Shown in pieces: positions 17,665 through 31,560 of a stretch of DNA of 36,219 bases (position 1 is its first letter; each line of letters opens with the position of its first letter). The position numbers were made by a program, and so were the translations under genes. The stretch covers positions 1-36,219 of the forward strand of contig MKUZ01000023.1 in assembly GCA_001899065.1 (NCBI GenBank), given 5' to 3'. Under the pieces are notes generated by a model, which was not told where the DNA came from, searched no databases, and saw nothing but the letters and a program-made list of their open reading frames with translations. This stretch comes from Devosia sp. 66-22. GTDB lineage: Bacteria; Pseudomonadota; Alphaproteobacteria; Rhizobiales; Devosiaceae.

Positions 17665-17703
17665 GTCAGCCGGCAACGGCGCGCATTGATCTGACTAAGG
17701 AAA

Positions 17704-17754
17704 TGGTGCTGCAAGAGAGGATTGAACTCTCGACCTCTCCCTTACCAAGGGAGC
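17704..17754 (-). other. attL-like site: 3' fragment of tRNA-Thr(GGT)
   Basis: Read on the minus strand, this is the 3' two-thirds of a tRNA. An anticodon arm with perfect 5-base stem CTCCC/GGGAG encloses the loop TTGGTAA (anticodon GGT, Thr). A variable region and a perfect T arm (GAGAG-TTCAATC-CTCTC) follow, then the acceptor strand TTGCAGC and ACCA. Upstream of the anticodon stem there is no D arm and no GCTGCAA acceptor strand, so the gene is incomplete. Tyrosine integrases commonly insert into tRNA 3' ends and leave such a fragment at one junction. The orientation puts chromosome to the left and the integrated element to the right. The intact tRNA is expected beyond the right edge. Confidence 0.85.
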
Positions 17755-17976: not shown

Positions 17977-18324
17977 TTAGGCGCTCAGGACGGAGCCCGC
18001 GACGGACCACTTCGAGACGCCATCGGAGATGAGACGCAGCCAGTCGTACTGCGCGCCCAGCACCTTCGAGTTGGCGCCGTCGATGGTGTCGGCGCCCGCG
18101 CGGGCCACCGTGAAGTCGTTGGCCGAGGCGTCGGTCTTCTTGAACTCGATGGCGTCACCGGCGGGAACATCGGCGGCGGCGGGCAGGGTGGCCGTGAACG
18201 CGGCGCCAGCGGTGGCGGCGAAAACCAGGGTGGCGTCGTTGGTGAGGGTGATGGTGCTGTCGGCGTAAACGACGCCGACCTTGCGGCGGTCAGGATTGCG
18301 GAGAGGAAGGGCGGTGTTAGCCAA
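17977..18324 (-). CDS. Phage virion-surface/fibre-like protein
   Basis: This 115-residue protein is made of short beta-strand repeats, with the pattern ATAGAAFTATLPAAADVPAG, then FKKTDASANDFTVARAG-DTIDG and a C-terminal segment ending DWLRLISDGVSKW. Such TLPAA ... KKTD ... ADTIDG ... SDG-SKW sequences are frequent in phage head-fibre, decoration or tail-fibre proteins. The strongest start is a TTG at 18324 preceded by GGAGG at 5 bases. An ATG 12 bases further upstream (18336) lacks a ribosome-binding site. It is the last gene of the leftward operon, right next to the attachment site and a terminator. Confidence 0.6.
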   Translation of the reverse strand: MANTALPLRNPDRRKVGVVYADSTITLTNDATLVFAATAGAAFTATLPAAADVPAGDAIEFKKTDASANDFTVARAGADTIDGANSKVLGAQYDWLRLISDGVSKWSVAGSVLSA

Positions 18325-18461
18325 GATGGCCTCCATGCATGGGAGTGAGAGAGGGGTTGCAACGGGTGCTTCGTAGCACAACGCGGACACCAAGTTGCGA
18401 GAAAGCCCGGGGCTGGTGCAGACCCCGGGCCAGTGGAGCCCCGCGAAGCGGCGCGGAGCAG

Positions 18462-18704
18462 TTAGTCGCGAGGGAAGGTGACGGGCGCCCTCGGCTTCGG
18501 GCCGGTGTCCGGCGGCTCGGCGGCGATAATCTCATGCGCCGCCTTCACGAGCTTGTCGGGGAGCGTGTCGTTCGAATAGTCCAACATCTTCCGGGTCAGT
18601 TCCTGCATCTCGCTGTAGGTCAGCGAGATGAGCCCGTTAGCGACGTGACGGAGCCCGTGCGGGCGTGCGAGGCCGGGGTTGAAGCTGCGCTCGTCGTCAG
18701 CCAT
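18462..18704 (-). CDS. Small phage protein, unknown
   Basis: This 80-residue acidic-to-neutral protein has no recognised family. Its central part (YSEMQELTRKMLDYSNDTLPDKLVKAAHEII) should be two amphipathic helices, and the tail is proline-rich. The ATG at 18704 overlaps the end of the Acb2-like gene by 8 bases (ATGGCTGA), so translation is probably coupled to it. A longer start adding MMWRRVLS is possible but reads over more of the neighbour. Immediate linkage to the Acb2-like gene makes a shared counter-defence or accessory role worth testing, but the sequence does not show one. Confidence 0.6.
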   Translation of the reverse strand: MADDERSFNPGLARPHGLRHVANGLISLTYSEMQELTRKMLDYSNDTLPDKLVKAAHEIIAAEPPDTGPKPRAPVTFPRD

Positions 18705-18978
18705 CGACAGCACCCTGCGCCACATCATCCCCGGGCAGGACGACCCGACCCGGCTTGAAGACGGCGCGGTTCAGCGCCATGAAGCCCTGCTCGAAGTGCG
18801 TCCGGGCCACGGCGGCCCAGCGGTGGTCGAGGTCCGGCACGATGTCCGGCAGGGACTCGATGCGGCGCAACAGCCGCTCCTCGGTATCCTTGTGGACATT
18901 GACCGCCTCGATCTTGTGGGGCGGCTGGGCGTTGTAGCCTGCGACGGGCAGGCCGTTGACCTTGTTGGGGTCGGACAT
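18697..18978 (-). CDS. Acb2/Tad1-hairpin family protein, candidate anti-CBASS cyclic-nucleotide sponge
   Basis: This 93-residue protein has the hallmarks of the phage Acb2 family. An N-terminal stretch leads into a charged helix (DTEERLLRRIESL). A second helix follows that carries the family pattern (P)DLDHRWAAVARTHFEQGFM-LNRAVFKP-R. In Acb2 this helical hairpin hexamerises and sequesters cyclic di- and tri-nucleotides made by CBASS immune systems. The RW-x(4)-TH-x-QGFM-x-LNRA-(V/I)F signature supports the call, and the length is close to the usual 90-100. It overlaps the downstream 80-residue gene and sits in the accessory distal end of the leftward operon. Binding itself is inferred. Confidence 0.72.
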   Translation of the reverse strand: MSDPNKVNGLPVAGYNAQPPHKIEAVNVHKDTEERLLRRIESLPDIVPDLDHRWAAVARTHFEQGFMALNRAVFKPGRVVLPGDDVAQGAVDG

Positions 18979-19157
18979 TGGTGTTCTCCGAAAAGACCCG
19001 CGATCCGGGTCACTGCTCCATCAGCGAAAAACGCCCCCAACAGCGGTGTATGCGGGATCAGCGCGTCCGCGCGGTTCACCTCACGCATCCGCTCGCGCAT
19101 CTCGCGCAGATGGTCAGACAGGGACGGCTTCTTCGGCGGACGCAGATCGTTGGTCAT
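18771..19157 (-). CDS. Small phage protein with long out-of-phase overlap
   Basis: The first 60 or so residues look like genuine coding sequence: a basic, helix-rich start (LSDHLREMRERMREVNRADA) and then LIPHTPLLGAFFADGAVTRI. The ATG at 19157 overlaps the previous stop as ATGA, as expected for a coupled phage gene. From about residue 62 the frame runs inside the Acb2-like gene for about 200 bases and becomes rich in Ser, Thr, Arg and Pro, as shadow frames do. The true protein may have lost its original stop by a small indel, or the tail may be tolerated. No family is recognised. Confidence 0.45.
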   Translation of the reverse strand: MTNDLRPPKKPSLSDHLREMRERMREVNRADALIPHTPLLGAFFADGAVTRIAGLFGEHQCPTPTRSTACPSQATTPSRPTRSRRSMSTRIPRSGCCAASSPCRTSCRTSTTAGPPWPGRTSSRASWR

Positions 19158-19342
19158 TCTTCAAGCGCCTCCAGCAGCTCATGGACGGTCACTTCGGGCG
19201 GCAGCTCCGCGAGGACACGGCGAGTCACAGTGAGCTGCCGGGCGACGTTGCGCTCGGGTACGTAGCGGCGGTTGGACACGTCGCCGTTGATCGTGTCCCC
19301 GAGGGCGATTTCGATAGCCTCAACAACCTCATCGCGGCTCAT
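19154..19342 (-). CDS. Small phage protein, unknown
   Basis: This 62-residue protein is predicted to be almost entirely helical and ends in an acidic helix (PPEVTVHELLEALEE). No family is recognised. Its stop overlaps the next gene's ATG (ATGA). It lies directly downstream of the phage GcrA homologue, with a 28-base gap. The start ATG is itself embedded in an ATGA, so a very short upstream reading of about 11 codons ends there, but there is no evidence that it is translated. Confidence 0.55.
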   Translation of the reverse strand: MSRDEVVEAIEIALGDTINGDVSNRRYVPERNVARQLTVTRRVLAELPPEVTVHELLEALEE

Positions 19343-19370
19343 TTGTCGGGGCTCCGATAGAGGGGGTTGG

Positions 19371-19883
19371 TCACGGTGCGGGGCTCCTGTAGATGGCGTA
19401 GTGGTCGTCGCAATAGGCGAGGCCGTCGGGCCGTCTCTCGACGTGGCAGTTGCAGAACAGGCTCTTGCCGCCCACCGTCACCGGCCAGCGACAACCGCGC
19501 TCGGCGCGGTCCATGAGGGGCTTCGGCTCGGACCCGGGGAGCGGTTGCCAGGCAGGGGCGTTGAACAGCTCCTGCTCGGTTTGCGGGGACACGCGGACGA
19601 TGGTCACCTGTCTGTCCGGCGAGCCCTTGACGTTGCGCCCCCGGACGCGGGACGTTGCCCGCGCCAAGAGCCGGGCTTCCCTGTCCGGGCGCCGGTAGAG
19701 TTTGATCTGGCCCTTCGAACGATGGATGACGCCGATGACGGCGTTGCGCGAAGCGCCCGGGATCGCGGCTGCGATCTGCGAGGCCGACATCTGATCTTCG
19801 TGGGCGAGCTGCTTCACCCGGTCGTACCGGGCTTTGCGGTCCATCAGCAGCCAGACATCTTCGACGGGGTGAGTGGCGTCCAT
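19371..19883 (-). CDS. GcrA-family regulator, phage-encoded
   Basis: This 170-residue protein resembles GcrA, the alphaproteobacterial cell-cycle factor that binds sigma-70 RNA polymerase and promoters with methylated GANTC sites. The N-terminal DNA-binding helices read YDRVKQLAHEDQMSASQIAA, then ASRNAVIGVIHRSK, matching the SASQIA ... TRNAVIGK-HR signature. The C-terminal half has the family's cysteine/histidine segment: CRWPV, then FCNCH and YCDDHYAIY, corresponding to the sigma-interacting part. It is near full size. On a phage it could redirect host transcription or copy the host's methylation-dependent timing. No CcrM-type methyltransferase is visible in the window. Confidence 0.8.
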   Translation of the reverse strand: MDATHPVEDVWLLMDRKARYDRVKQLAHEDQMSASQIAAAIPGASRNAVIGVIHRSKGQIKLYRRPDREARLLARATSRVRGRNVKGSPDRQVTIVRVSPQTEQELFNAPAWQPLPGSEPKPLMDRAERGCRWPVTVGGKSLFCNCHVERRPDGLAYCDDHYAIYRSPAP

Positions 19884-19888
19884 GTTGG

Positions 19889-20554
19889 TCAGCCTTGCTC
19901 CGGAGCCACCGCCACGAACGGGCGTTTCGTCTCGTCACAGACGCCGAGGAGGAAGGCGCCGTATGCTTTCCAGAACTTGGACCCCGCCGCCCCATCCATC
20001 GCCGCGATCTTCCGTGCGCTGAACCCACGCCAGTCCGCGATGGGGTGCATCTGGCAACCAATCGCCATGTGGGCATCAGTGATAGTCACATTGTAGGTGA
20101 TGCCGCTAACAACGATTACGGGCGCGGACACCCGGGCGTCGCCCCACACCTGAGCGTTGCCCAACACCTGAGCGTTGCCCAACACCTGAGCGTTGCCCAA
20201 CACCCGAGCGTCGCCCGACACCCGGGCGTTGCCCAACACCCGAGCGTCGCCCGACACCCAAGCGTCGCCCGACACCTGAGCGTTGCCCAACACCCGAGCG
20301 TCGCCCGACACCCGGGCGTCGCCCGACACCCAAGCGTCGCCCGACACCTGAGCGTTGCCCGACACCTGAGCGTTGCCCGACACCCAAGCGTTATCCAACT
20401 GGCTCAGGTTCGCTTCTGACGCCACCCAGCCACCCAACGCACCGGCTACCACCGTGCCGAACGATACCAGCGCCTCGATGCGGTGCAGCGTGACCCCGAA
20501 AACCACCTTCGTCTCACGGGTCAGCCGATACTTCTTCTTCGTCTTGATTGCCAT
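19889..20554 (-). CDS. Hexapeptide-repeat (beta-helix) phage protein
   Basis: This 221-residue protein has three parts. A basic start (AIKTKKKYRLT) leads into a segment like the common phage pattern LHRIEAL ... GTVVAGALGGWVASEANLS. Fifteen near-identical hexapeptides of the type (N/D)A-x-V-(S/L)G follow, about residues 53-143, expected to fold as a left-handed or similar beta-helix. The C-terminal domain contains MAIGCQMHPIADWRGFS and FWKAYGAFLLGVC. Function is unknown. The ATG at 20554 follows AAAGGATCG. An ATG 48 bases upstream is in frame but badly spaced from its GAGG. The repeat number probably varies between related phages. Confidence 0.7.
   Translation of the reverse strand: MAIKTKKKYRLTRETKVVFGVTLHRIEALVSFGTVVAGALGGWVASEANLSQLDNAWVSGNAQVSGNAQVSGDAWVSGDARVSGDARVLGNAQVSGDAWVSGDARVLGNARVSGDARVLGNAQVLGNAQVLGNAQVWGDARVSAPVIVVSGITYNVTITDAHMAIGCQMHPIADWRGFSARKIAAMDGAAGSKFWKAYGAFLLGVCDETKRPFVAVAPEQG
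20124..20396. repeat. Tandem 18-base repeats (15 units) encoding hexapeptides
   Basis: The stretch consists of about 15 directly repeated 18-base units built from variants of ACACC(T/C)GAGCGTTGCCC and ACACCCGAGCGTCGCCC on the plus strand. All are in frame within the beta-helix protein gene. Units are identical or differ at a few positions, which is typical of arrays that expand and contract by slippage or recombination in multiples of six codons. There are no spacers, so it is not a CRISPR. Confidence 0.9.
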
Positions 20555-20615
20555 TTTGCTCGATCCTTTTCCCGATGGCTGTCCTGTCCATCTGGCGGCC
20601 ATCCTCGCGTTGTTT

Positions 20616-20653
20616 TGTCGGTTTCGTCAAGCATCAAAAACAACAAAAGCAAC
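20616..20653 (-). promoter_or_regulatory. Candidate phage control region: TTGACGAAACCGACA plus GTTGC-type repeat
   Basis: On the minus strand, upstream of the beta-helix gene, GTTGC-TTTT-GTTGT (20640-20653) is followed 14 bases later by TTGACGAAACCGACA (20616-20630). Closely related pairs occur upstream of the XRE regulator on the plus strand (30829-30876 and 30940-30967). The shared layout in non-coding gaps of opposite orientation suggests a phage regulator site or promoter class. No convincing -10 element follows. Confidence 0.4.
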
Positions 20654-20660
20654 AACGAGG

Positions 20661-22631
20661 TCATTTTTTATAGCGGTCGCCCGCCCATCCGGCGGCATCG
20701 ACCGGCAGTCCCTTTGCCCAAACAGGCGGCAACTTCATCGCGCGGAGCAGGTGCTTGAGCGACGTGTCCGCCGTCGCTGCCGGGGCTTCGCAAATCATCT
20801 CGTCGTGGACCAGCAGCTCGGGCCGCAAGCCCAAATGCTCAGCCCGCTGGGTGGCGAGCGCCATGATGTCGCGGGCGACGGCCTGCGTGATGTTCTCGAC
20901 CAGCTTGCCGCCGTAGGTGCGTTGCCGCTTCCACTTCCGCGTGTACTGGTCCACTCCCATGTAGGTGATGCCGACGCGGCCCAGCTCGTCTGTTTCGAGG
21001 CGGGCGTCGCGATAGACCAACTTGCGCCCGGAGGGCAGCTTGATCAGCAGATGCCCGCGCCACATGGCGAAGGACACCGGCCCGACGTTGTAGCTCGCGC
21101 TGGCGCCATTGATGGCCGACTGGAGCACAGCCTTGGCGGCGGCGTCGCAGTCCCACCAGAACTGGACGATCATGCGGTTGTTGGCGCGCCACGTCTTGAC
21201 GGCCTGCTCGGCAAACTCGTCTGTCAGGGCTAGGCCGTAGGTCTTGGCCGTGTCCTTGAACTTCCGCCAGGACATACCGAAGCCACAGGCGAGCACGAGG
21301 ACTTTCCCGAGCTGGCGGTTGCTAGAACCATTCTGGCGAGCGGTGTAGGTGTAAACGTCGGGGCCGGTGCCCGCGTCATAGGCGCGGAAGGTGTCCAGAA
21401 TGTCCGACTGACCGGCGAGCCACGCGACCACCCTCGCCTCGATCTGCGCGAAGTCAGCGACGACGAGCTTGTTGCCGGGCTTCGCGACGATGCACCCACG
21501 TAGGGCGCTGGACACGATCCCGAGGAGCGGCCCGAAGAACGCCTCCAAGAGGTCATCCGACATGCCGTTCGCGATTGCCTCAAGAGCTTGCTCGATCAGC
21601 TTGACCGTGCCGCGCGGCATGTTCTGGAGCTGGATCAGGCGCCCCGCCCAGCGGCCCGTGCGTGAGGCTCCATAGAACTGGAGGGCGCCCCGGGCGCGGC
21701 CATCGTGGCGGGACGCCTCGATCATGGCGTTGAGCTTGGCCGTGCTCGTCTTCGCGCCGTCCAGGCGCAGCTCCAAAATCTCGCGCTCGTGGTCGGGCGT
21801 GCTCGGATCATCGAGCCGCTGCTGCACGGTATCTTTCTTGAGGTTCGCGATGGGCGAGCCAATGGACGTGAGATAGGTCTGGAGCGCGGCGGTGCTCGTG
21901 ATGGTCTTCACCGCGCCGTTGGTGAGCTGTTCGACGTAGGAGTTGGTGTCGGCGCCAGCCCGGGAAGCCATCCCCTTGAGCGTGTCCACCATGTCCAGAT
22001 CTACCTGGACACCGCGCTCGTTGATCTTCTGGTCTAGTTCCCAGAGCGCCTGTTCTTCTTCGGGCAGCGCGGGGATCAGCGCGCCTACCGACGCTTCGGT
22101 CACAACGTCCTGATCGCAGTAGTCTTGCAGACGATCCAGCTTTGCCGGGTCTTCCTCGTGCCACCACGACAAGCCCGACTTCGTGCGCCGGGGTTTGTTC
22201 ATCTGCATCATCAGCCTGTGGCCGTCCTTGTCCTTCCAGAACTCGGGCGGCAGGCCGACGGCTTTCGCGGCTTCATCGAGCGAGAGGGGCAAGCCCCAAT
22301 AGGCGGCCCGCGCCATCGTGTCCCGGAGCTGGCCGACCTCAAGCGGGCACAGCTCGGGATGCTGACGAAGGAGCACGTAGTTCCAGATGACAAGCTCGAA
22401 GCCCACGTTCCAGCCGTGGACATGGCGACGACGCGCGACGTGATCTGCTAGTTCTTGGGGGAACGGCTCGCCGGGCTTCCAGCGTTTGACCTTCGCGCCC
22501 TCGAAGGCGTAGCTCAGGCACAGGATGCGCGTGTCCGGATGGCGGGCATACTCGTGTGCGCCCGTCTTCCGGAGGTCGAGAGTGCTGGCCGTCTCGAAAT
22601 CAATGGAAACGGCGCTGGGCACGAATGTCAT
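20661..22631 (-). CDS. Family A (Pol I-type) phage DNA polymerase with 3'-5' exonuclease
   Basis: This 656-residue replicative polymerase lacks the 5' nuclease domain. The N-terminal DEDDy proofreading domain has Exo I SIDFETAS, an Exo II-like GWNVGFEL (Glu where Asp is usual) and Exo III DYCDQDVV. The polymerase domain has motif A VADFAQIEARVVAWL, motif B RQLGKVLVLACGFG (about 438-451) and motif C LLVHDEM (about 608). The residue equivalent to E. coli Phe762, four after the motif B lysine, is Leu, a variant that published viral surveys have linked to temperate phages. ATG 22631 is chosen because SIDFETAS follows closely. Upstream in-frame sequence overlaps the preceding gene. Confidence 0.93.
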   Translation of the reverse strand: MTFVPSAVSIDFETASTLDLRKTGAHEYARHPDTRILCLSYAFEGAKVKRWKPGEPFPQELADHVARRRHVHGWNVGFELVIWNYVLLRQHPELCPLEVGQLRDTMARAAYWGLPLSLDEAAKAVGLPPEFWKDKDGHRLMMQMNKPRRTKSGLSWWHEEDPAKLDRLQDYCDQDVVTEASVGALIPALPEEEQALWELDQKINERGVQVDLDMVDTLKGMASRAGADTNSYVEQLTNGAVKTITSTAALQTYLTSIGSPIANLKKDTVQQRLDDPSTPDHEREILELRLDGAKTSTAKLNAMIEASRHDGRARGALQFYGASRTGRWAGRLIQLQNMPRGTVKLIEQALEAIANGMSDDLLEAFFGPLLGIVSSALRGCIVAKPGNKLVVADFAQIEARVVAWLAGQSDILDTFRAYDAGTGPDVYTYTARQNGSSNRQLGKVLVLACGFGMSWRKFKDTAKTYGLALTDEFAEQAVKTWRANNRMIVQFWWDCDAAAKAVLQSAINGASASYNVGPVSFAMWRGHLLIKLPSGRKLVYRDARLETDELGRVGITYMGVDQYTRKWKRQRTYGGKLVENITQAVARDIMALATQRAEHLGLRPELLVHDEMICEAPAATADTSLKHLLRAMKLPPVWAKGLPVDAAGWAGDRYKK

Positions 22632-22944
22632 TCCAATCGGGCTTCTCGAACTCGGGTTCGTTCTCCTCGATCGGGTAGACCGTGATGAGGTCGCCAAAGC
22701 CCGGCTGGAACACCCAAAGGTGCTCCATGAAGAACAGGTAGTCCGTGGCCTGCGGGTGCAGCGTCCGCTTATGCTGGACAAGGATTTGCACCCACATCGG
22801 CATCTGGCTCTCGCGCAGGCCTTCGATCCGGGCGCGGTCCACCATGCGGGCGATCGCCCGAGCCTTGATCTTGACGCGCTTACGCAGCCGCCTCATGCCG
22901 TGGACGGTCGAGCCGCGTTCGTAGCGGTTCGGGACATGGCGCAT
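22600..22944 (-). CDS. Phage protein of unknown function
   Basis: This 114-residue, strongly basic protein (start RRLRKRVKIKARAIARMVDRA) has a C-terminal part with an aromatic segment (YLFFMEHLWVFQPGFGD). No family is recognised. Its end overlaps the polymerase start by about 32 bases, and it begins 3 bases after the upstream stop, so it is part of the replication operon. The basic N-terminus could contact nucleic acid, but that is only a possibility. Confidence 0.65.
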   Translation of the reverse strand: MRHVPNRYERGSTVHGMRRLRKRVKIKARAIARMVDRARIEGLRESQMPMWVQILVQHKRTLHPQATDYLFFMEHLWVFQPGFGDLITVYPIEENEPEFEKPDWNDIRAQRRFH

Positions 22945-22947
22945 GGG

Positions 22948-23541
22948 TCACTCTCCCTCGCGCCCACGGACGGCACTTAGCCCGGCGGGGCCGACCTGTC
23001 CGACGAAGGTGGTGTCCCCGGCCTCGCGCGCAGCGAGCCCGCGAAGGTCGGCGCCGCCGGTCAGCGGAAGTTCGAGCTGTTCGCCGCCCTCGCGGGCCGC
23101 CTGCTCACGGGCAACCTCGTCACGGACAGCCTCGACCCACGCCTCGGCGTCGAGGCGGGACTTGATGACTTCGTGCAGGTAGCCGGACACGTTGAACAGG
23201 AGCCCGCACAGGGCGACCTCCAGCGGCTCCAGCGCGATCTTCTTCCAGCCCCGGTGGATCGTCCACCAGTCGAAGAAGTGACGGAAGCCGGACTTCATGT
23301 AGCTGTCGCGCGGCATCCCCTTCTGCCAGTTGTCGCCGTCGCGGAGGGAACCGTCAGCCAGCTTGCGCTTGCCATGCATGTATTGCGCGAACCGCTCCAT
23401 CACGAGCGGCGAGAAGAAGCCCTCGTAGTCGAGCTTGCTGGCGTCCACGTCGCGGGTCGCGCCAGTGGCAAAGGTGCGGACCAACGGCCCTTGTCCGGGA
23501 GCGTTCGCCCAAGGGGTGTCAGTCGGCTGCGGGTTCGTCAT
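22948..23541 (-). CDS. dATP/dGTP-diphosphohydrolase N-terminal-type (DUF5664) phage protein
   Basis: This 197-residue protein carries the phage domain formerly called DUF5664. The diagnostic order is YEGFFSPLVMERFAQYMHGKR, then DGSLRDGDNWQKGMP, YMKSGFRHFFDWW and a C-terminal helix ending LCGLLFNVSGYLHE. The family is named after a dATP/dGTP diphosphohydrolase N-terminal domain and is built of MazG-like helices, so a role in cleaning or shaping the dNTP pool is likely but not shown here. A low-complexity tail follows residue 150. ATG 23541 overlaps the preceding gene's stop by about 20 bases. It lies two genes upstream of the DNA polymerase. Confidence 0.75.
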   Translation of the reverse strand: MTNPQPTDTPWANAPGQGPLVRTFATGATRDVDASKLDYEGFFSPLVMERFAQYMHGKRKLADGSLRDGDNWQKGMPRDSYMKSGFRHFFDWWTIHRGWKKIALEPLEVALCGLLFNVSGYLHEVIKSRLDAEAWVEAVRDEVAREQAAREGGEQLELPLTGGADLRGLAAREAGDTTFVGQVGPAGLSAVRGREGE

Positions 23542-23791
23542 CGAATTTCCTCCAGTCGGAGTGATTGCGGTCGAAGGCGCGGAGGATGGTCTTCGCGTGC
23601 TTGTTGGTTGCGCCTCGGGGGACACCGCCGATCAGCGGCGGGACCGTGCGGACGGTCCACTCATCGGGGGAGCCCTCGCGTCCGTGGATGGCGTCGGCTT
23701 CGCTGACAGCCTCGGCCCTCACGTCGAAGCCCTGCTTCGTCCAGAAGTCCTCGATCTGCCGTGCGATGCGCTCTGCTTGGTGCTGCTGCAT
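23519..23791 (-). CDS. Small phage protein, unknown
   Basis: This 90-residue protein starts with an amphipathic helix (HQAERIARQIEDFWTKQG). It has a short beta section (FDVRAEAVSEAD), then a basic, Gly-Pro-containing part (PPLIGGVPRGATNK) and an acidic end. No family is recognised. ATG 23791 is supported by AAGGA 7 bases upstream. A GTG at 23815 is in frame but has a poorer context. Its stop lies inside the start of the DUF5664 gene, which indicates coupled translation. Confidence 0.6.
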   Translation of the reverse strand: MQQHQAERIARQIEDFWTKQGFDVRAEAVSEADAIHGREGSPDEWTVRTVPPLIGGVPRGATNKHAKTILRAFDRNHSDWRKFDDEPAAD

Positions 23792-23882
23792 GTGGGTGTC
23801 CTTGGGTAATCCCACCCCCGCCAGCTCCTCCGGCTCTCGTGTCCGGCTGGCGCTGGCGGGCGTGTTGACGTTCCAGTGGCGA

Positions 23883-24518
23883 CTAGAACGGCATATCGTC
23901 GGGGGCGATGCCGCCCGAGGACGGCGCCTGCCCGGGCGTGATGCCCAGCGCGGCGAGCTGCGAGTTGTCCACGCTCTCGAACGCCTTGGCCGCCGAGCGG
24001 CGACCGTCGATGCGCGGCATGTCCGCCTTCACGATCTGGACGTGCTCCAGGGCGAACGAGACGCCCTTGTTGCCCGAGTTGTCGTAGGCGAAGGCGCGGA
24101 CGGTGGCGCGCCCGAGCTGACCCGACCAGACATCGCCGGGGACCGTGATATCCTGCCCATTGATGTCCACGACACCGGGGGCTTTCTTGTCGCCGGGGCT
24201 CCACGGGTTGATGTAGACCGTGAAGTTCTCGAAGCCCGAGTATTCCTTCTCGCTCGCATTGCGGAAGGGGAGGCGGATCGAGCGCATGAACGCCGGGTCA
24301 GCAGCCTTCACCGCACCGAACTTGTCGGTCGCGGCGGCGACGACAGCCGAGCGCAGGTCCTGGTACTGCGTGGTCTTCATCGCGGTGTCATCGAAGCCGA
24401 GGATGACCGAGAAGCGCGGCTTGCCGCCGTCGGCGGCGGGCTTGGCGACGAACAGCGTGTCGGCAAAGCAGAGCGTGCCAATGGGCGTCATCGCCAGGGT
24501 CTTGGGGTTGGAGGCCAA
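23883..24518 (-). CDS. DUF2815-type single-stranded DNA-binding protein
   Basis: This 211-residue protein resembles the phage DUF2815/T7 gp2.5-like single-strand-binding proteins. It has an OB-fold-like beta-rich body (TPIGTLCFADTLFVAKPA, then PRFSVILGF, then WSGQLGRATVRAFAYDN), followed by a flexible linker. The acidic tail ends DDMPF, the tip that SSB proteins use to recruit partners. It should coat ssDNA for the phage polymerase, helicase and nuclease. The start is a TTG at 24518 with GAGGA about 9 bases upstream. No ATG alternative preserves the N-terminal strand. Confidence 0.85.
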   Translation of the reverse strand: MASNPKTLAMTPIGTLCFADTLFVAKPAADGGKPRFSVILGFDDTAMKTTQYQDLRSAVVAAATDKFGAVKAADPAFMRSIRLPFRNASEKEYSGFENFTVYINPWSPGDKKAPGVVDINGQDITVPGDVWSGQLGRATVRAFAYDNSGNKGVSFALEHVQIVKADMPRIDGRRSAAKAFESVDNSQLAALGITPGQAPSSGGIAPDDMPF

Positions 24519-24551
24519 TTACTATTTCCTCAGAGTTGTGTGCCGGTGCCG

Positions 24552-24572
24552 AGTTGCGCGACGTGAGCAACT
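24552..24572. promoter_or_regulatory. AGTTGC/GCAACT inverted repeat before the SSB gene
   Basis: AGTTGC and GCAACT form a perfect 6-base inverted repeat with a 9-base spacer in the 91-base gap between the nuclease gene and the SSB gene. The half-site GTTGC is the same pentamer repeated in other phage gaps, here in inverted orientation. It may be an operator. There is no T-run to suggest a terminator. Confidence 0.35.
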
Positions 24573-24609
24573 AATGACGCAGCGGCGAAACAGGTTCGGG
24601 GTCGGCCTC

Positions 24610-25962
24610 CTAATCGGCGTTGGGTGAGGGGAGGGTGGGTGCGAAGGCTTCCTGCGCCGAGCGGCCCTGCTGGACACGAGTGCGAGGATCGCCCTCGGGG
24701 GCGAGCGTGACGCCGCCGCTGGTGCTGGTCACAAGGCCGAGCTGATCCATGAGCGCTTTGAACGCCTTCTTGCCCAGCAGCCTCTCCGTCTGCGCGGGCG
24801 AGCGCAGGCGCGTCTCGGTGTAGAGGCCGGGTGCGAGCCCGGCGTTGTGCAGGGCGGCCACGATCTTGGGCTCGTCGTCGGCCCACACGCGGCGCGGGCG
24901 GGTCGGAACCAGCTTCCAGCCCATGCCCGGGCGGGACGACGCCCTGAGCCTGTCCGCAGCGAGGGTTTCGAGCGCGGCGAAGTAGGGCTTGATGATCGCG
25001 AGCTTGTCGAGCAGTTCGCCCAGCTTCTTGTCTGAGATGTGTGTGTCCGGCAGCGCGGCGAGCGCGTCGGTGTTGGTCGGCACACTCGTGGGGTCCGCGC
25101 CGTTCGCGACGGCCACGTTGGCGGCGGGCACGTTCTTGAATGCGTCCTTGGCCGCGTCGAGCGAGAACTTTTCGGCGGCCTTGCAGTGAGGCAGCGCCGG
25201 GCAGAAGCGGCAGTGCTCGCCGGGTTGGAAGGTCGTGCCGTTGTCGTTGATCGCCCGTTCGACGCCCTGGTAGAGCGGCCCGCGCGCCCAATCATGGACC
25301 TCCTGCCCGCTGTAGCTGGCGCGCCGGATCGGGCCGTCGGGGTGGTAGGCGCGGGGCTGAACGACGATTGTCTCGATCTCGCTGGGCGTCCAGCCGTCGG
25401 GCAGGGCCGCGTAGCCGTGTTGGGAGAGCAGGTAGTTCAGCAGCTCGCGCGAGAAGGCGCCCGCTGCGTAGTAGAGGAGCTGGGGGTTGCCGGTGGCCTC
25501 GACGGCGATGCCTCGCCCGAACTTGAGGTCCACAATGATCAGCTTGCCGGTCTGCGGGTGGAACGCGATGCAGTCCGCCGTGCCGAACAGATCAATGCCG
25601 AGGGGTGGGAGTCCGCTCCAATGGATCATCGGGGAGACGCGCGTCTCCAGCAGGATGATGTATCCCAGCGCCATGAGGCCGCGCACGAAGTCCACATAGG
25701 CTTGCACGTTGTCCGAGAAATCTTCGTCGGGCGTGAACTCGAAACCGTCCGCGTGGAACGTCCGCCCGATCAGGTCTGCCGGGTTCGAACCTGCGAACAG
25801 CGCGGCCTCGGATACGGAGTGGGCGAGAGTGCCTTCGGCGGAGAACTCGGTCGAGCGACGCTCGCCGGTGTCCACGGCCTGCCCGAGCGCATACGATCCC
25901 GAACACGCGAGGAGCCGGTGCGCCGAGCTGGCGGGGAATGCACTGTGTCCGGTGTTTGCCAT
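24610..25962 (-). CDS. DUF2800 PD-(D/E)XK nuclease, Cas4/RecB-like
   Basis: This 450-residue phage nuclease has the N-terminal start of the DUF2800 family (FPASSAHRLLACSGSYAL), a PD-(D/E)XK core with GTADCIAFHP and KLIIVDLKFGRG (catalytic Asp and Lys), and the QL-type motif NPQLLYYAAGA. A cysteine cluster CRFCPALPHC, near residue 255, together with an upstream cysteine, resembles the iron-sulfur ligands of Cas4 and AddB. Such proteins are thought to act in phage recombination or DNA end processing with SSB. ATG 25962 overlaps the previous stop (TGATG). The C-terminal 150 residues form a separate helical domain. Confidence 0.88.
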   Translation of the reverse strand: MANTGHSAFPASSAHRLLACSGSYALGQAVDTGERRSTEFSAEGTLAHSVSEAALFAGSNPADLIGRTFHADGFEFTPDEDFSDNVQAYVDFVRGLMALGYIILLETRVSPMIHWSGLPPLGIDLFGTADCIAFHPQTGKLIIVDLKFGRGIAVEATGNPQLLYYAAGAFSRELLNYLLSQHGYAALPDGWTPSEIETIVVQPRAYHPDGPIRRASYSGQEVHDWARGPLYQGVERAINDNGTTFQPGEHCRFCPALPHCKAAEKFSLDAAKDAFKNVPAANVAVANGADPTSVPTNTDALAALPDTHISDKKLGELLDKLAIIKPYFAALETLAADRLRASSRPGMGWKLVPTRPRRVWADDEPKIVAALHNAGLAPGLYTETRLRSPAQTERLLGKKAFKALMDQLGLVTSTSGGVTLAPEGDPRTRVQQGRSAQEAFAPTLPSPNAD

Positions 25963-26297
25963 CAGACGGGCTCTCCACGTTCGGCGCGCCACTTGGCGAG
26001 CCCTTCCGGGGTGGCCGTCGAGTTGGCCACGATGCTGTCGGGGTTGTCGTCAATCCACACGTCCGGGACGAAGCCCTGGCCGAAGTGGGTCAGATACCAG
26101 CGCTTGGCGACGCCGCGCGTGTAGAAGACCTCGCGCTTGCCTTCCAGGTTGCGGAGTGGGAGCGTCCGGTCGAGCACGGGGTCGCGGATCGTGACGATTG
26201 CGACCTCGTGTCCGTGCAGTTCGGCGGCGACCGCGACCTTCTCCCAGAACTCGGGGTCGAGGCTGTAGGTCTTGTCGTAGTCGAGCGCGATCCTCAT
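25962..26297 (-). CDS. HAD-like small phosphatase-type phage protein
   Basis: This 111-residue protein has an N-terminal motif like HAD motif I (LDYDKTYS, DxD followed by T) and a C-terminal WIDDNPDSIV resembling the acidic motif IV. Between them, the segment AIVTIRDP could be motif II. It is short and lacks a cap domain. Members of this phage family are thought to act on phosphorylated metabolites or nucleic-acid ends. The substrate is unknown. The stop overlaps the nuclease ATG (TGATG), and the start ATG overlaps the MazG-like stop (ATGA). Confidence 0.65.
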   Translation of the reverse strand: MRIALDYDKTYSLDPEFWEKVAVAAELHGHEVAIVTIRDPVLDRTLPLRNLEGKREVFYTRGVAKRWYLTHFGQGFVPDVWIDDNPDSIVANSTATPEGLAKWRAERGEPV

Positions 26298-26635
26298 TGG
26301 GTCAGCACCATGCGGTGCGGCAGGCCCACCTTCTCTGACGTGGCGTTGAACTTGGCGGCAACCGCAAAGCTCAAATTGATCCCGGCGGCCTGCGCGATGA
26401 GGTCGGCGCAAATGACGACATCTGCCAGCTCCTCCGCCAGATGCTCAATCGTGTCGCGGGAGCCGCGAAGGCCAAGCCGCTCGCGTTCCAGCTTCTTGAT
26501 GACGTTGCAGGCTTCGCCCACTTCACCCGCCATCTCATTGCCACGATAGGACAGGCTGATCTGGTTGCCGCTGTCCCACTGCTTCTGCCGCTCGGCGTTG
26601 GCCGTGGACAGGTCCGTGTAGGTGAAGTCGGTCAT
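26294..26635 (-). CDS. MazG-like nucleotide pyrophosphohydrolase
   Basis: This 113-residue all-alpha protein has the metal-binding pattern of the MazG/dUTPase-like fold: GEVGEACNVIKKLERE on one helix and EELADVVICADLIAQ on the next (ExxE ... ExxD). It should hydrolyse (d)NTPs to monophosphate and pyrophosphate, tuning the nucleotide pool during phage replication. The substrate preference is unknown. It overlaps both neighbours by 4 bases (ATGA at each end), within the replication operon and close to the DUF5664 gene. Confidence 0.85.
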   Translation of the reverse strand: MTDFTYTDLSTANAERQKQWDSGNQISLSYRGNEMAGEVGEACNVIKKLERERLGLRGSRDTIEHLAEELADVVICADLIAQAAGINLSFAVAAKFNATSEKVGLPHRMVLTQ

Positions 26636-26805
26636 GCAAGCCTCTTGGGTTCAGCGTCGGTGGCGCGCTGGTCGAGGACGCGCTGAATGACGAACTCGAT
26701 CTGCCGCATGCCGCACTCGGCGTCGCGCCCTTCGCGCTTGATGGACACGGCGATGTCGTGGGACGAGATGACGGTGCCGTCTTCGAGGGTGACAGTGAAC
26801 TTCAT
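26632..26805 (-). CDS. Small phage protein, unknown
   Basis: This 57-residue protein starts with a beta hairpin (MKFTVTLEDGTVISSHDIA) and ends in a helix (MRQIEFVIQRVLDQ). No family is recognised. The ATG at 26805 lies one base after the upstream stop, and the gene's own stop overlaps the MazG-like ATG (ATGA), so it is firmly in the operon. An extended reading to 26898 runs over the upstream gene and is rejected. Confidence 0.6.
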   Translation of the reverse strand: MKFTVTLEDGTVISSHDIAVSIKREGRDAECGMRQIEFVIQRVLDQRATDAEPKRLA

Positions 26806-26806
26806 T

Positions 26807-27046
26807 CTACTCACCCAATCCCTCGATGCCGGTTCCGACGAAGACCTCAATCGGTGTGTCGTCGTCCTCGGGGGTGTATGTGCCGTCCGCGACCGCACGA
26901 GCGTCGAGGATGGCGTTCAGCGCCATGTCCAGCTCGCCCGGCAGAGGGTTGCCTTGGTTGGCCTTAGAGTAGGCGCGCAGTTCGGCGGAGCTGATCGTTT
27001 CCAGCTCGCACCCGTCGTTCACGACGATCACGTATGGGAGGGTCAT
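26807..27046 (-). CDS. Small acidic phage protein, unknown
   Basis: This 79-residue acidic protein has strands at the N-terminus (LPYVIVVNDG), a helix (SSAELRAYSKANQG) and a C-terminal acidic stretch (TPEDDDTPIEVFVG). No family is recognised. It starts with ATG after a purine-rich AAGGGAAG. The upstream end of its leader, at 27117-27130, holds a GTTGC-TTTT-GTCGC pair resembling repeats upstream of other phage genes. Confidence 0.6.
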   Translation of the reverse strand: MTLPYVIVVNDGCELETISSAELRAYSKANQGNPLPGELDMALNAILDARAVADGTYTPEDDDTPIEVFVGTGIEGLGE

Positions 27047-27100
27047 TTGCTCGACTTCCCTTGGGGTTGAGGAGATTTGGTTGAACTCTGATTTGGTGCT

Positions 27101-27298
27101 TTAGTCGAGAAAATAAGCGACAAAAGCAACGACAACCGCACTAAAGAAAACAGCGACTGCGATGCCCGAAATCCAGAGCGTGTCGGTGCCGAGGGCTTGG
27201 TCGGCAACGAGCGCCCACAGAGCGACGAGCGCGGCTGCTGCGCCCACGAGGGTGCAGACCCGGGAGAGAAACATGCGGACGTGATAGGGGAGGAGCAT
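27101..27298 (-). CDS. Small two-TM membrane protein
   Basis: This 65-residue protein is almost entirely two hydrophobic helices (VCTLVGAAAALVALWALVA and WISGIAVAVFFSAVVVAFVAYF) separated by a short polar turn. It lies within the replication operon and not near lysis or tail genes, so a holin role is not supported. It may be a membrane anchor or superinfection factor. The ribosome-binding site at ATG 27298 is weak. The gap to the upstream stop is 2 bases. Confidence 0.55.
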   Translation of the reverse strand: MLLPYHVRMFLSRVCTLVGAAAALVALWALVADQALGTDTLWISGIAVAVFFSAVVVAFVAYFLD

Positions 27299-27300
27299 TT

Positions 27301-27780
27301 TTAGGCGCCTTTCTGGACCTCGGCGGTCCCGTTCACGGTCAGAAGAACATCGTTGTAGAAGTCCGGCACGCGGTCGTCCGAAATCTCATCGAACTTCTTG
27401 ACGCCGTACTTGGCCTGGAGATTGGCGAGCTGGGGCATGACGCGCTGGTCCTTGTTGAACAGGTCCAGCAGCATCTTCACGCCCGCGCTGCGCCGCTCGG
27501 GGATGGTGAGTTCTTTGACGACATTGCCCGGCGGGGGCTGCTCCTCGGTCGTGGCGGTGGACAGCGGAGCGATGGGCGCCGTCGCAGGCGCGGTGTCCGG
27601 AGGCGTGAGCGCGACGACTTCCGGCGGCCCCATCTCAGCAGTGATGCCGTCCGTGGTCACTTCGGCCTTGCGCATGTGACGAGCGAAGTTCTCCACGCCG
27701 CCAAAGGCGGCGGCAAGAGCTTCGAGCGAGCGCTTCAAGTCTTCGGGGTTGTCGGCATTGATCTGGAGGGAAAACGACAA
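27301..27780 (-). CDS. Phage protein of unknown function
   Basis: This 159-residue protein has three sections: a helical N-terminus (NPEDLKRSLEALAAAFGG), a long Pro/Ala/Thr linker (about residues 52-85) and a C-terminal helical region (RRSAGVKMLLDLFNKDQ ... LQAKYGVKKFDEI). The linker implies two separate functional parts. No family is recognised. The start is a TTG at 27780 with GAGGT 5 bases upstream. It follows the SNF2-type helicase by 9 bases, so an accessory role to that helicase is plausible. Confidence 0.6.
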   Translation of the reverse strand: MSFSLQINADNPEDLKRSLEALAAAFGGVENFARHMRKAEVTTDGITAEMGPPEVVALTPPDTAPATAPIAPLSTATTEEQPPPGNVVKELTIPERRSAGVKMLLDLFNKDQRVMPQLANLQAKYGVKKFDEISDDRVPDFYNDVLLTVNGTAEVQKGA

Positions 27781-27789
27781 TTGGAACCT

Positions 27790-29184
27790 CTATGCAGCAG
27801 TGGTGGTCAGAGCGCCGATAAGGTCGTCAAAGTCCGCCGCCCGGCGACGCGCCCGCGCAGCATACCTTTCGTCGGCGGTGCCCGCCGCGAAGCCATAGAA
27901 CGCCGTCACGCTCTCGGTTTGGCCGAGGCGGTCGAAGCGCCCAACGATCTGGTGGTTGTCTGCCGCGACGCCCTCGGGCTCCAGCAACAGCACGTAGTGC
28001 GCCGCCGTGAGCGTGATGGACGTGCCAGCCGCCGTGTTCTGGCCGATGAAGACCCGGCATGTCGGGTCGTTCTGGAAGCTGTCAACGCGGGTCGCGCGCT
28101 GCGCGGACGAAACACTGCCGTGGATCACTGCCGGGTTGTACGGTGCTAGCGCGGCTTCAAGCTGGTCCAGCACTTCACGGTGCCGCGCGAAGACCCCCAG
28201 CTTGGCGTCGGGGTTGGCGTCGAGGAAGTCCTTGATCCATTCGGTGGCGGCAGGAGTCTTTGCGAGGCCCAGCAGTCGGCGCTCCTCGGCGGCGCTCGGG
28301 CTCAGCTCGGGAAGGTCTTCGTCATCGCTGATGGCCGCCATGAGGGCGTCCAGCTCGCTCGATGTCCGTTGCGCACCGGGGATTGGGCTCAGCGTGAGCG
28401 GCAACGTCAGATGCTGGACCGGGCCGATCTCCTGTTGCACGTCCTTCTTGGCCCGGCGCAGAACGTATGGCCGCAGCGCCTCGCGCAGCTCGTGGATAGT
28501 GATTGGGTTGTTGCCCACGATTTCGAGGCCGTACGGCGTGTCCTGCGTGACGCAGAAGCGCGCGATGAAGGCGTCGTAAGCCGGGATGACGCCGCCAAAC
28601 AATTTGGTGAGCACGTCGGGAAACAGGGCGCGTAGATGGGGGTAAAGCTCGCCCGCGTTCTTGCGCTGGATCGTTGCGGACATGAGCCACGTGCTGGGCG
28701 CGCGGTCGCCGGACACGTCGAGGAGGACGCCACCGGCGAGGTTCAGCTTGGCGCCGTAGATGGCCCGGGTGCGATTGCTGTCCGCGTTGCCAAGATGGTG
28801 CGCTTCGTCAATGACGACGGCATCGAAGGTGCCGAACATCTGGGCGTGCCGGAGGAGCCTCCGGAGTTGCTTGCGCGCCTCGGCCCGTGACAGGGCATCG
28901 AAGGCAGCGACGACGGCAACGGGTGTCGGCGGGATCAGCTTGGTGTTGCCAGTGAATTGGACGACTTCGCGCGGGATCGTCTGCCACTTCGGAATTTCAA
29001 TGGCCCACGAGACGCGCCCGATCGCCTGGCAGATGACGAGGATGCGCTGCGCCCCGATCTTGTCGGCGGCACGGACGGCCTGGGCGGACTTGCCCAACCC
29101 CGTGTCGTCGGCAAGGATCGCGCGGGAGCTTCCGGACAGGAAGTCCACGCCAGCGATCTGAGAGGGGCGCAGCGCGAGGTTCAT
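27790..29184 (-). CDS. SNF2-family DNA helicase/translocase
   Basis: This 464-residue superfamily 2 ATPase is of the compact SNF2/SMARCAL1-like kind found in phages. Motif I is DDTGLGKSAQA, motif II DEAHH, motif III SAT, motif V is around NTAAGTSITLTAAHYVLLLE, and motif VI is QIVGRFDRLGQT. The C-terminal helicase lobe begins near KLGVFARHREVLDQL. Such proteins remodel forks or strip proteins from DNA and often sit beside RuvC-type resolvases, as here. The start ATG is 12 bases after the upstream stop. No accessory nuclease domain is present. Confidence 0.9.
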   Translation of the reverse strand: MNLALRPSQIAGVDFLSGSSRAILADDTGLGKSAQAVRAADKIGAQRILVICQAIGRVSWAIEIPKWQTIPREVVQFTGNTKLIPPTPVAVVAAFDALSRAEARKQLRRLLRHAQMFGTFDAVVIDEAHHLGNADSNRTRAIYGAKLNLAGGVLLDVSGDRAPSTWLMSATIQRKNAGELYPHLRALFPDVLTKLFGGVIPAYDAFIARFCVTQDTPYGLEIVGNNPITIHELREALRPYVLRRAKKDVQQEIGPVQHLTLPLTLSPIPGAQRTSSELDALMAAISDDEDLPELSPSAAEERRLLGLAKTPAATEWIKDFLDANPDAKLGVFARHREVLDQLEAALAPYNPAVIHGSVSSAQRATRVDSFQNDPTCRVFIGQNTAAGTSITLTAAHYVLLLEPEGVAADNHQIVGRFDRLGQTESVTAFYGFAAGTADERYAARARRRAADFDDLIGALTTTAA

Positions 29185-29196
29185 GGTCGGTGGTGC

Positions 29197-29823
29197 TTAG
29201 TGGCGGGTGGCCGTCTTCTCGCCGTCACGGGCGGCAACATACTTGGCCGCCAGCGCCATAAACGGGCCGTGCAGCATCCGGGGCAGGAGCGTGCCGAACT
29301 GCAACACGGACGAATTGGGCTCCACCTTGAGCGCCTTCGTCACGTAGGCGGACACAGCAGCCGCCTCGATGATGAAGCACACGCAATCGAGCAGCGCCGT
29401 CTCCATGATTTCGACGTGGCGGCCCGCGTAGTCCTCGGGCTTGGCTTCGAACGCGGCCTGCATCCCAAGGCGGTTCTGCGTGGACAGCACGCTCAGAGCC
29501 ATCGTGAATCCAGTAGTCACGCCCGCGCGGAACTTGGGCTCGTTCTCGAAGTCCTTGCGCGGCCCCGACTTGATCCAGTCCCAGGAGCTGCCGGTGGCGC
29601 CACCGGGGAGCGGCAGTCCCGTGGCTTCCTTGTCCCGCGCCACCACAGCCTCGGCCAGCGACGGCCCGTAGCGGTCTTCGGCCTCGTGAAACAGCGCATG
29701 GATGGCTTCGAGGTCCATCTGCGAGATGTCGCGGGCCTCGGTGGAAACGCCAGTTTCCGGGGAAGCTGCCTTGCCGATGTGGCCGGGGGCAGTGGTCTGC
29801 TTGGCAGTCTTGGGGTCGGTCAT
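29197..29823 (-). CDS. Phage protein of unknown function
   Basis: This 208-residue protein has a polar N-terminus (about residues 1-45), a Gly/Trp-containing middle (GGATGSSWDWIKSGP) and a long helical C-terminal half. The latter contains a hydrophobic stretch (ALLDCVCFIIEAAAVSAYV) that could be buried or membrane-associated. No family is recognised. It begins a transcription block: 200 bases of non-coding DNA precede it, with GTTGC repeats (29836-29856) and an inverted repeat (29981-30002). Confidence 0.6.
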   Translation of the reverse strand: MTDPKTAKQTTAPGHIGKAASPETGVSTEARDISQMDLEAIHALFHEAEDRYGPSLAEAVVARDKEATGLPLPGGATGSSWDWIKSGPRKDFENEPKFRAGVTTGFTMALSVLSTQNRLGMQAAFEAKPEDYAGRHVEIMETALLDCVCFIIEAAAVSAYVTKALKVEPNSSVLQFGTLLPRMLHGPFMALAAKYVAARDGEKTATRH

Positions 29824-29835
29824 AATCTCTGTCCT

Positions 29836-29856
29836 GTTGCGAGTTGCTCGTGTTGC
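29836..29856 (-). repeat. Three GTTGC repeats in the leader of the 208-residue protein gene
   Basis: GTTGC occurs at 29836, 29843 and 29852 on the plus strand, the last two exactly 9 bases apart (GTTGC-TCGT-GTTGC). The same 9-base-period arrangement recurs in several other non-coding gaps of the element. A repeated regulator half-site is the simplest reading. The function is unproved. Confidence 0.4.
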
Positions 29857-29980
29857 ATGAGGTGCTTACGCTGACAACGAAGGCAAATCACCACGCCTTT
29901 GGGTGATCCGTCAACAGGGGCCAGCGATTTTTTCGAGGGGGCCGTTACAGCGGCGTGACAACGCCGGGGACGGACGGTCA

Positions 29981-30027
29981 AAATAGGACCGTATTCCTAT
30001 TTGTTCCGACTTTGTTCCTGTTGTCAA
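29981..30027 (-). promoter_or_regulatory. Candidate promoter with overlapping operator palindrome
   Basis: On the minus strand a perfect -35 hexamer TTGACA (30022-30027) is followed after 17 bases by a weak -10 (ACAAAT). A perfect 8-base inverted repeat AAATAGGA/TCCTATTT with a 6-base loop (29981-30002) overlaps the expected start region. This is the layout expected for a repressor-controlled promoter of the leftward block beginning at 29823. The palindrome lacks a GC stem and T-run, so it is unlikely to be a terminator. Confidence 0.4.
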
Positions 30028-30542
30028 GCAACCTGGAGCGACAGCGCCCCGGCATAGGCAATCAGCGCGGCATCGGCCCGGTTGTGGTCCATCTTGCGGG
30101 CGAAGGCGCCTGCGAGGTTGGGGAAAAGCTGCCCAGCGCGAAGGCGCCCTGCGTCAGGGTCCCTGGGCACCCGGACGAGGCTCTGCCACTGTCTGGGCGC
30201 GATCCGGTGGACCACCAGGCCGGCGCCCGCCGCGACGCCCTCGATCAGGCCGAACGCCTGCCCGAACCGGAACATCGAGGTCACGCCCTGGCCGGGCATC
30301 GCGTGGACATCTTCGATGAACACGTCCGCCGCAAGCCCGAAGGGATTCTCGCTCATGCGGCGGAGTAGCGCCGCCAATTCGCTGGGGATAAGATGTGACT
30401 TGGCCGACCCGTTGACCTTCACCTTGGCAGTCGGGATATCTTGCACGTCGATGAGTCGCACGGTGCCCCCGTGCATGTGAGCTAGAGCGACCGCCCCGGT
30501 GACGCCGGGGTCAATTCCGAGGATCAGACGACTATGAGGCAT
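30024..30542 (-). CDS. RuvC-like Holliday junction resolvase
   Basis: This 172-residue RNase H-fold nuclease resembles phage RuvC-family resolvases. The first catalytic Asp is in LGIDPGVTGAVAL, the Glu in FIEDVHAMPGQG, and the C-terminal acidic pair in DHNRADAALIAY. The GVTSMFRFGQAFGLIEGV helix is also typical. It would cut Holliday junctions or branched DNA before packaging, in the cytoplasm. The ATG at 30542 overlaps the end of the upstream 97-residue gene by about 11 bases. Confidence 0.9.
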   Translation of the reverse strand: MPHSRLILGIDPGVTGAVALAHMHGGTVRLIDVQDIPTAKVKVNGSAKSHLIPSELAALLRRMSENPFGLAADVFIEDVHAMPGQGVTSMFRFGQAFGLIEGVAAGAGLVVHRIAPRQWQSLVRVPRDPDAGRLRAGQLFPNLAGAFARKMDHNRADAALIAYAGALSLQVA

Positions 30543-30825
30543 CGGCCACCACCGAGGCGGGCTTCTCGACCCGTAGTGCTTCTTGCAAGGTCATCCTGTC
30601 CATGCGCAGGGCGCAGTAGAGCAGGCGCGGGCGCCACTCGGCGGCGATCTTCTTGCGGCTGGTCCACTGATAGATGGCCCAATCGCTCGGCTCCCCGGGC
30701 TTAGCCTGCCGGTGGAGCGTCAGGGCCTTGCGAATAGGAGCAGGCGTCCAGCCGAGGGCCTTGAGGATTGCTTCATCGTCCCATGCGACGGGGCGCGTCT
30801 CGTTGGTGGGGTTCTCGGTGTTCAA
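30532..30825 (-). CDS. Phage protein, first gene of the leftward operon
   Basis: This 97-residue basic protein contains a segment (DEAILKALGWTPAPIRKALT ... DWAIYQW) that could form a small helix-turn-helix-like fold, but the match is weak. It starts at a TTG (30825) with a modest GCAGG 8 bases upstream. It is the promoter-proximal gene of the leftward operon, divergent from the XRE regulator, the place where phages often put an early regulator. No firm family. Confidence 0.55.
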   Translation of the reverse strand: MNTENPTNETRPVAWDDEAILKALGWTPAPIRKALTLHRQAKPGEPSDWAIYQWTSRKKIAAEWRPRLLYCALRMDRMTLQEALRVEKPASVVADAS

Positions 30826-30828
30826 TTC

Positions 30829-30967
30829 GTTGCCTGCGTTGCTTTTCGTTGTGCGCCACCTTTGACAATACCGTCATGGTTTCGTGCTTCGCTACAGGAA
30901 ACCACGGGGATAGCTGGACAATTCCGAGCCACAGACTTGTTGCTTTCGGTGTTTGACAAAACCGACA
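30829..30967. promoter_or_regulatory. Divergent control region with repeated GTTGC and TTGACA-AACCGACA elements
   Basis: This gap separates the leftward operon (TTG 30825) from the rightward regulator (ATG 31031). Read on the plus strand it holds GTTGC-CTGC-GTTGC (30829-30842), then TTGACAATACCGTCA (30862-30876), then GTTGC-TTTC-GGTGT (30940-30953), then TTGACAAACCGACA (30954-30967). The two halves are thus a repeated composite element. This is where a lysogeny repressor would be expected to bind. No strong -10 is visible at 17 bases from either TTGACA. Confidence 0.5.
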
Positions 30968-31030
30968 GCGGGCACTAGGCGTTAGCCCGTTGCGGTCGAG
31001 AAAATGGCAACCATGAAGGAGAAACTTGCC

Positions 31031-31543: not shown

Positions 31544-31560
31544 ATGGCCCGTGATCTGAC

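Follow-up and report, generated by a model that had tools for sequence, protein, structure and literature searches.

A Devosia prophage encodes an Acb2-family helical-hairpin protein that is probably a cyclic-nucleotide sponge

Results

The window, by which we mean the whole stretch of 36,219 nucleotides analysed here, corresponds to the first 36,219 bases of a 132 kb contig of Devosia sp. 66-22 and takes in the left end of a prophage. The left attachment repeat (17703-17752) is the 3' half of a tRNA-Thr gene, and it is identical in 50 of 50 bases to a second copy lying 49 kb rightward, at contig positions 66661-66710 (L026:16661-16710), where the tRNA-Thr(GGT) is intact. Since the two repeats enclose a set of phage genes, namely an integrase, a repressor-like gene, a primase, a terminase, a major head protein, a polymerase, an exonuclease and a helicase, we interpret the region as a prophage of ~49 kb in tRNA-Thr. 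Within the window, the minus strand carries a GcrA-like regulator (19371-19883; PF07750, E = 3.1e-15), a phage DNA polymerase A (20661-22781; PF00476, E = 2.7e-13), a phage exonuclease (DUF2800; 24610-25992; PF10926, E = 4.3e-59; phrog_69) and a phage helicase (27790-29184; phrog_62, E = 6e-71). The integrase is encoded on the plus strand (31737-32885; phrog_1, E = 7e-28; no Pfam match at E <= 0.001), and its gene stands 14 kb from the nearest prophage end instead of adjoining it. The gene studied here, acb2, is transcribed in the same direction as the polymerase and lies ~0.95 kb inside the left end of the prophage, after the leftward replication genes, with which it is probably expressed. 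A terminator scan gave 7 sites, fewer than the mean of 9.1 in shuffled sequences, and the stem after position 18462 folded slightly better than its shuffles (z -1.72).

Among phage records, no near DNA match was found for positions 18000-36219 of the window. The flanking DNA has near matches in 45 plasmid records, 44 of them from Rhizobium, Sinorhizobium, Shinella or Acuticoccus, and these are short, covering 6% of the query in the best ten rows; one flanking gene, searched by tblastn, matched mainly plasmids of Streptomyces (46 of 51). In another genome of the genus (G005), a relative of acb2 is followed by a similar tail-fibre-like gene, and the two may thus have a common position close to the end of the phage. 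The prophage GcrA-like gene lies three genes upstream of acb2, and a chromosomal GcrA gene is found elsewhere (E = 2.0e-51, in a frame with one TGA). This chromosomal gene, the plasmid matches of the flanking DNA and the hosts of the nearest named phages point to an alphaproteobacterial host, and the Streptomyces matches speak against it; a 16S search of the genome gave no hit, its controls being positive. The prophage also encodes a CobS-like AAA ATPase of 565 residues (L025:1429-3126; phrog_249, porphyrin biosynthesis), for which the tblastn matches were mainly to cyanophages.

The acb2 gene is an ATG-initiated ORF of 93 codons that occupies exactly positions 18697-18978 of the minus strand. 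A preliminary description of this DNA had given the same interval and a 93-residue product, both of which were borne out, and had left the strand unstated; the signature it quoted is indeed present in the product, as HRW followed by THFEQGFMALNRAVF. The GC content by codon position (0.73/0.40/0.89) is coding-like and resembles that of the nearby GcrA-like gene (0.67/0.50/0.87), and a CGGAGAA sequence is found upstream, its last base five bases from the ATG. Off-frame ORFs are common at this locus, as shown by the upstream ORF, which runs without a stop through 208 nt of acb2, and it could be argued on this ground that acb2 is itself a chance ORF in GC-rich DNA. The profile score, the homologues and the coding-like codon GC all speak against this, and the match to the family PF24729 refutes it, so that its probability is practically negligible.

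Three other small ORFs surround acb2 on the same strand. The downstream gene (18462-18704) encodes 80 residues and overlaps the end of acb2 by 8 nt if it starts at the ATG at 18704, or encodes 88 residues with an overlap of 32 nt if it starts at the ATG at 18728; its codon GC is 0.64/0.44/0.88. The upstream ORF (18771-19157), whose start forms an ATGA overlap with the preceding gene, is coding-like in its first 59 codons. Its last 208 nt lie inside acb2 in another frame with a codon GC of 0.38/0.96/0.70; because this pattern is not coding-like, the overlap probably arises by chance, for want of a stop codon, and this segment is likely a shadow translation over acb2. Both ORFs do overlap acb2, as stated earlier, and the two overlaps differ in kind. 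Further upstream is a gene for 62 residues (19154-19342).

When the full upstream ORF was used as a query, tblastn matched six loci, three of which are copies of one sequence, and in five of the six the match was confined to the stretch that is an out-of-frame reading of the conserved hairpin. The frame of the upstream ORF (+1) is open over the hairpin core in 10 of 83 homologues, and since the other off-frame is also open, in 22 of 83, this openness is no sign of selection; on this comparison we rejected the upstream ORF as a genuine overlapping gene. The remaining one of the six loci, L096, matches the upstream ORF across residues 17-127. As for a frameshift fusion of acb2 with the upstream ORF, no classic slippery site was seen by eye.

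The downstream ORF (18462-18728), the coding-like upstream piece (18943-19157) and the 62-residue gene gave no significant match in Pfam, PHROGs, NCBIfam or PADLOC, PHROG matches at E >= 0.11 being disregarded. By tblastn (E <= 0.01), the same three were found in none of the 116 other loci that we fetched, not all of which carry an acb2 relative. The proposal that the interval of 18.4-19.3 kb is a counter-defence island was therefore rejected as unsupported: the three small neighbours have no significant family match and, at this threshold, were not found in the other fetched loci.

The product of acb2 is a member of the Acb2/Tad1 hairpin family. The Pfam profile of this family, PF24729, matched the protein over its full length with E = 1.4e-16 and a score of 60.8 bits, the cut-off being 27, profile positions 1-58 aligning to residues 14-75 (18754-18939, minus strand). 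PHROG 717, a family with no assigned function, also matched (4.1e-11); PADLOC and NCBIfam gave no match to the product. With T4 Acb2 (Vs.4, PDB 7uq2) the protein shares 28% identity by tblastn and 35% in the multiple alignment, and with PaP2 Acb2 (p26, PDB 8h2j and 8h2x) 21%, which makes it a distant but ordinary member of the family, and one that is new.

Relatives were found by tblastn (E <= 0.01) in 55 of 50,697 phage records, all at less than 60% identity. The gene is labelled hypothetical protein in 53 of these records and 'coil containing protein' in one, and it is left unannotated in one. Relatives in the phages Polewnik, Jess A, RHph_X2_26 and RcapMu share 49-55% identity over 81-92% of the protein, and all four are labelled hypothetical protein; that of Jess A has an N-terminal extension. 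In RHph_X2_26, the gene directly before the relative (L012:4426-4962) is labelled TIR, and we dropped this link to TIR proteins when Pfam assigned the gene to DUF1937/DUF4406. Viral contigs, searched by a degenerate-pattern scan and by tblastn (E <= 1e-3), contributed 79 loci, a number that includes duplicates or weak ones. The pattern scan of genome contigs gave 3 loci, one of which (L029) was false, having no hairpin protein, and was dropped; the other two are from Tabrizicola and Devosia.

Profile searches of the PDB pointed to Acb2 in particular. A profile built from the window protein and nine uncharacterised relatives, and thus containing no characterised Acb2, retrieved nothing but Acb2 up to E = 1, in the form of three sequences (8h2j, 4.9e-10; 8ixz, 5.1e-10; 7uq2, 7.5e-7). 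A profile of 56 rows retrieved the same three at 1.2e-12, 1.5e-12 and 2.7e-9, together with an unrelated sequence at 0.57. The match to 7uq2 obtained with the profile of alignment A1 is circular because A1 contains T4 Acb2, and it is the searches repeated without T4, with the 10-sequence and 56-row profiles, that are quoted here. With the single sequence as phmmer query, the best PDB match was PaP2 Acb2 at E = 0.3, which is not significant.

The structure predicted by AlphaFold2 from the 56-row alignment (mean pLDDT 86.4, pTM 0.67) has two long antiparallel helices at residues 20-46 and 52-74 and a short helix at 84-87, with pLDDT averaging 96-98 in blocks over residues 21-70. Foldseek placed Acb2 chains in the nine best positions against the PDB, with probability 1.00 and TM scores of 0.58-0.68; the E-values were modest (0.0022-0.0072, none reaching 0.001), and the 41 others among the best 50 of 151 matches had probabilities of at most 0.47. 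The preliminary description had made structural similarity to the Acb2/Tad1 hairpins one check of its assignment, and such similarity is what the confident hairpin model and these matches reveal. As an excerpt of a review describes it, the Acb2 protomer has a short N-terminal helix before the hairpin; the model has no helix in residues 1-19, and the block pLDDT values over residues 1-20 are low (61 and 78).

The family PF24729 covers the hairpins of both Acb2 and Tad1 (7uav, 8kbh), and the host genome has five ORFs matching TIR_2, so that the protein might be envisioned as a Tad1-type sponge directed against the Thoeris signal gcADPR. Tad1, according to the review excerpt, has its own N-terminal antiparallel beta sheet, whereas the 93-residue window protein is a stand-alone hairpin, its model consisting of helices only, the first from residue 20, with no strands and no N-terminal beta domain. 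Moreover, Tad1 chains appeared only with a broad profile, at E ~0.9, and were absent up to E = 1 with the 10-sequence and 56-row profiles. We regard a Tad1-type sponge as highly improbable.

PaP2 Acb2 is the best fold match and has the GY, N, K, RW, T, M, R and P positions in common with the window protein, and T4 Acb2 is, like it, a stand-alone hairpin of ~90 residues matching PF24729. Both differ from the window protein in their longer connection between the helices. In excerpts of the papers on Panoptes (PMC12657218, PMC12657230), the T4 Acb2 substitutions Y8A, F82C and T68M are described as impairing binding, and one of the two has Phe82 stacking on the ligand. These three positions correspond in alignment A1 to Tyr15, Thr60 and Phe74 of the window protein, and all three residues are identical. 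Among the 56 aligned rows, Y15 is shared by 55, T60 by 53 and F74 by 52, and G14, K30, R71 and P76 are found in all 56. Phe74 alone does not define the family, since it is retained in just 11 rows of a broader 20-row alignment and PaP2 Acb2 has Ala at this position. Arg53, kept in 54 of the 56 rows, aligns with R67 of the Acb2 of a P. aeruginosa phage, which we take to be the arginine of the cyclic-trinucleotide site.

In three phages, RcapMu, RcWaterboi and Lsp-JY19, the hairpin gene follows the major capsid gene at a distance of two genes (loci L011:5989-6276, L014:3486-3773 and L021:2480-2701). Such a position is unexpected for a gene that counters host defence, and it raises the question of whether the hairpin could serve the phage in structure or assembly and not as a nucleotide binder. 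Such a role is quite improbable for the window protein, whose gene sits with replication genes and whose ligand residues are conserved; the neighbourhoods of the phage relatives that we opened vary too widely to fit a fixed structural part, and RcapMu44 is itself annotated as 'similar to cyclic-nucleotide binding domain'.

In the phylogenetic tree, the window protein falls in a group of 72 of the 83 rows, with T4 Acb2 and ten other relatives outside it (support 98/89), although the bootstrap had yet to converge and resolution is poor among the nearest neighbours of the window protein; the tree was made without duplicates, L029, L105, L106 and L020, and PaP2 Acb2 is absent from it. Following the conserved Pro76, the 56-row alignment, three rows of which fall outside the 72-row group, has a conserved tail of the form R-V/I-x-L-P-x-D: R78 is present in 55 rows, V or I at position 79 in 51, L81 in 46, P82 in 36 and D84 in 42. 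Across 81 distinct relatives, the arginine is found in 71 and the pattern xR[VIAL]x[LIFV] in 63. The tail is missing from T4 and PaP2 Acb2, both of which terminate within a few residues of the conserved proline, and T4 Acb2 lacks in addition the RW pair and the GLPV N-terminus of the window protein.

Nine phage records among those we opened belong to the 72-row group, from phages named for Brevundimonas, Caulobacter, Rhodobacter and Rhizobium (with Sinorhizobium as the isolation host of a single Rhizobium phage), and every one of them labels the gene hypothetical protein, RcapMu44 with the note quoted above. The viral contigs come without host names, and the alphaproteobacterial base of the group is thus established only for these nine phages and the two genome loci. 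A search for Acb2 of Caulobacter, Rhizobium or alphaproteobacterial phages listed no paper on the subject, as judged by title and the start of the abstract, and papers in Molecular Cell 2024, Nature 2024 and Cell 2023 may cover some of the relatives. In actinobacteriophages, putative Acb2 genes are already being named, as seen in an excerpt of PMC13348362.

Discussion

The assignment to Acb2 is well supported by four lines of evidence, namely the family profile, the profile search of the PDB, the predicted fold and the conserved ligand residues. Because the window protein has both the fold and the cyclic-dinucleotide positions named in the literature, Acb2-like action is the best explanation of its function, and by homology the acb2 product is very probably an Acb2-type sponge acting on cyclic nucleotides, whichever of these it prefers. 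As laid out in the review excerpt, Acb2 protomers pair head to head, three molecules of 3'3'-cGAMP are bound between the protomers of the hexamer, a central channel accommodates two cyclic trinucleotides, and the protein retains its ligands and does not degrade them. By analogy, we infer that the two-helix hairpin of the window protein would assemble as a hexamer with pockets between its protomers, and that in each pocket a cyclic nucleotide would be held tightly, and left uncut, against Tyr15 on the N-terminal side and Phe74 on the C-terminal side. In this manner the alarm signal made by the CD-NTase could be kept from its effector, for example the phospholipase encoded by a CBASS operon of a congener, and the self-killing of the infected cell might be averted until the phage is done.

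The host genome itself gave no match to SMODS or AGS_C, in searches that were both positive in control genomes. Of 18 further genomes from this genus, 3 had a SMODS match that passed the cut-off. In one of these (G008), PADLOC recognised adjoining genes for a cyclase, a phospholipase effector and an E2 protein, in another (G006) the cyclase accompanies a 4TM effector, and L110 is the third SMODS locus. These genes imply that congeners probably produce CBASS signals, even if the present host may not.

A second interpretation keeps the fold and the sponge mechanism and has the main ligand shifted away from a CBASS cyclic dinucleotide, to cyclic trinucleotides or another signal. It overlaps with the preferred one, since the mechanism is shared and the two differ in the ligand alone. 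The place of the window protein in a large group that excludes T4 Acb2 (with the bootstrap unsettled) and the conserved tail that T4 and PaP2 Acb2 lack would both be consistent with such a shift, and Acb2 homologs do vary in ligand range, as stated in the review excerpt. The positions named for cyclic dinucleotides are nevertheless retained, and a shifted ligand seems rather unlikely to us. One could go further and propose that the GLPV start and the R-V/I-x-L-P-x-D tail near Phe74 mark a distinct and widespread Acb2 branch of alphaproteobacterial phages, with a signal range unlike that of the T4 and Pseudomonas Acb2 proteins. We hold this to be a doubtful proposition, though if it were true, the signal range of the branch would report which alarm nucleotides are used by alphaproteobacterial CBASS.

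Leaving the ligand aside, the reading of the acb2 product as an Acb2-type sponge extends the range of carriers of a known family of immune-evasion proteins by a prophage of 49 kb, together with phage relatives labelled hypothetical, and it gives annotators of such phages a name for these genes. How the signal range of a sponge is set could be approached through the additional conserved tail close to the pocket. Since sponges can also betray the phage to Panoptes, as reported in the excerpts of PMC12657218 and PMC12657230, knowing which phages carry them should help in reading plating results.

Some relatives are larger than the window protein. In five of them (L010:5722-6285, L115:320-784, L020:2182-3081, L076:3869-4288 and L090:831-1214), the hairpin begins only at residue 52-210; the hairpin is the one Pfam domain over the cut-off, and some of the extensions appear beta-rich by eye.
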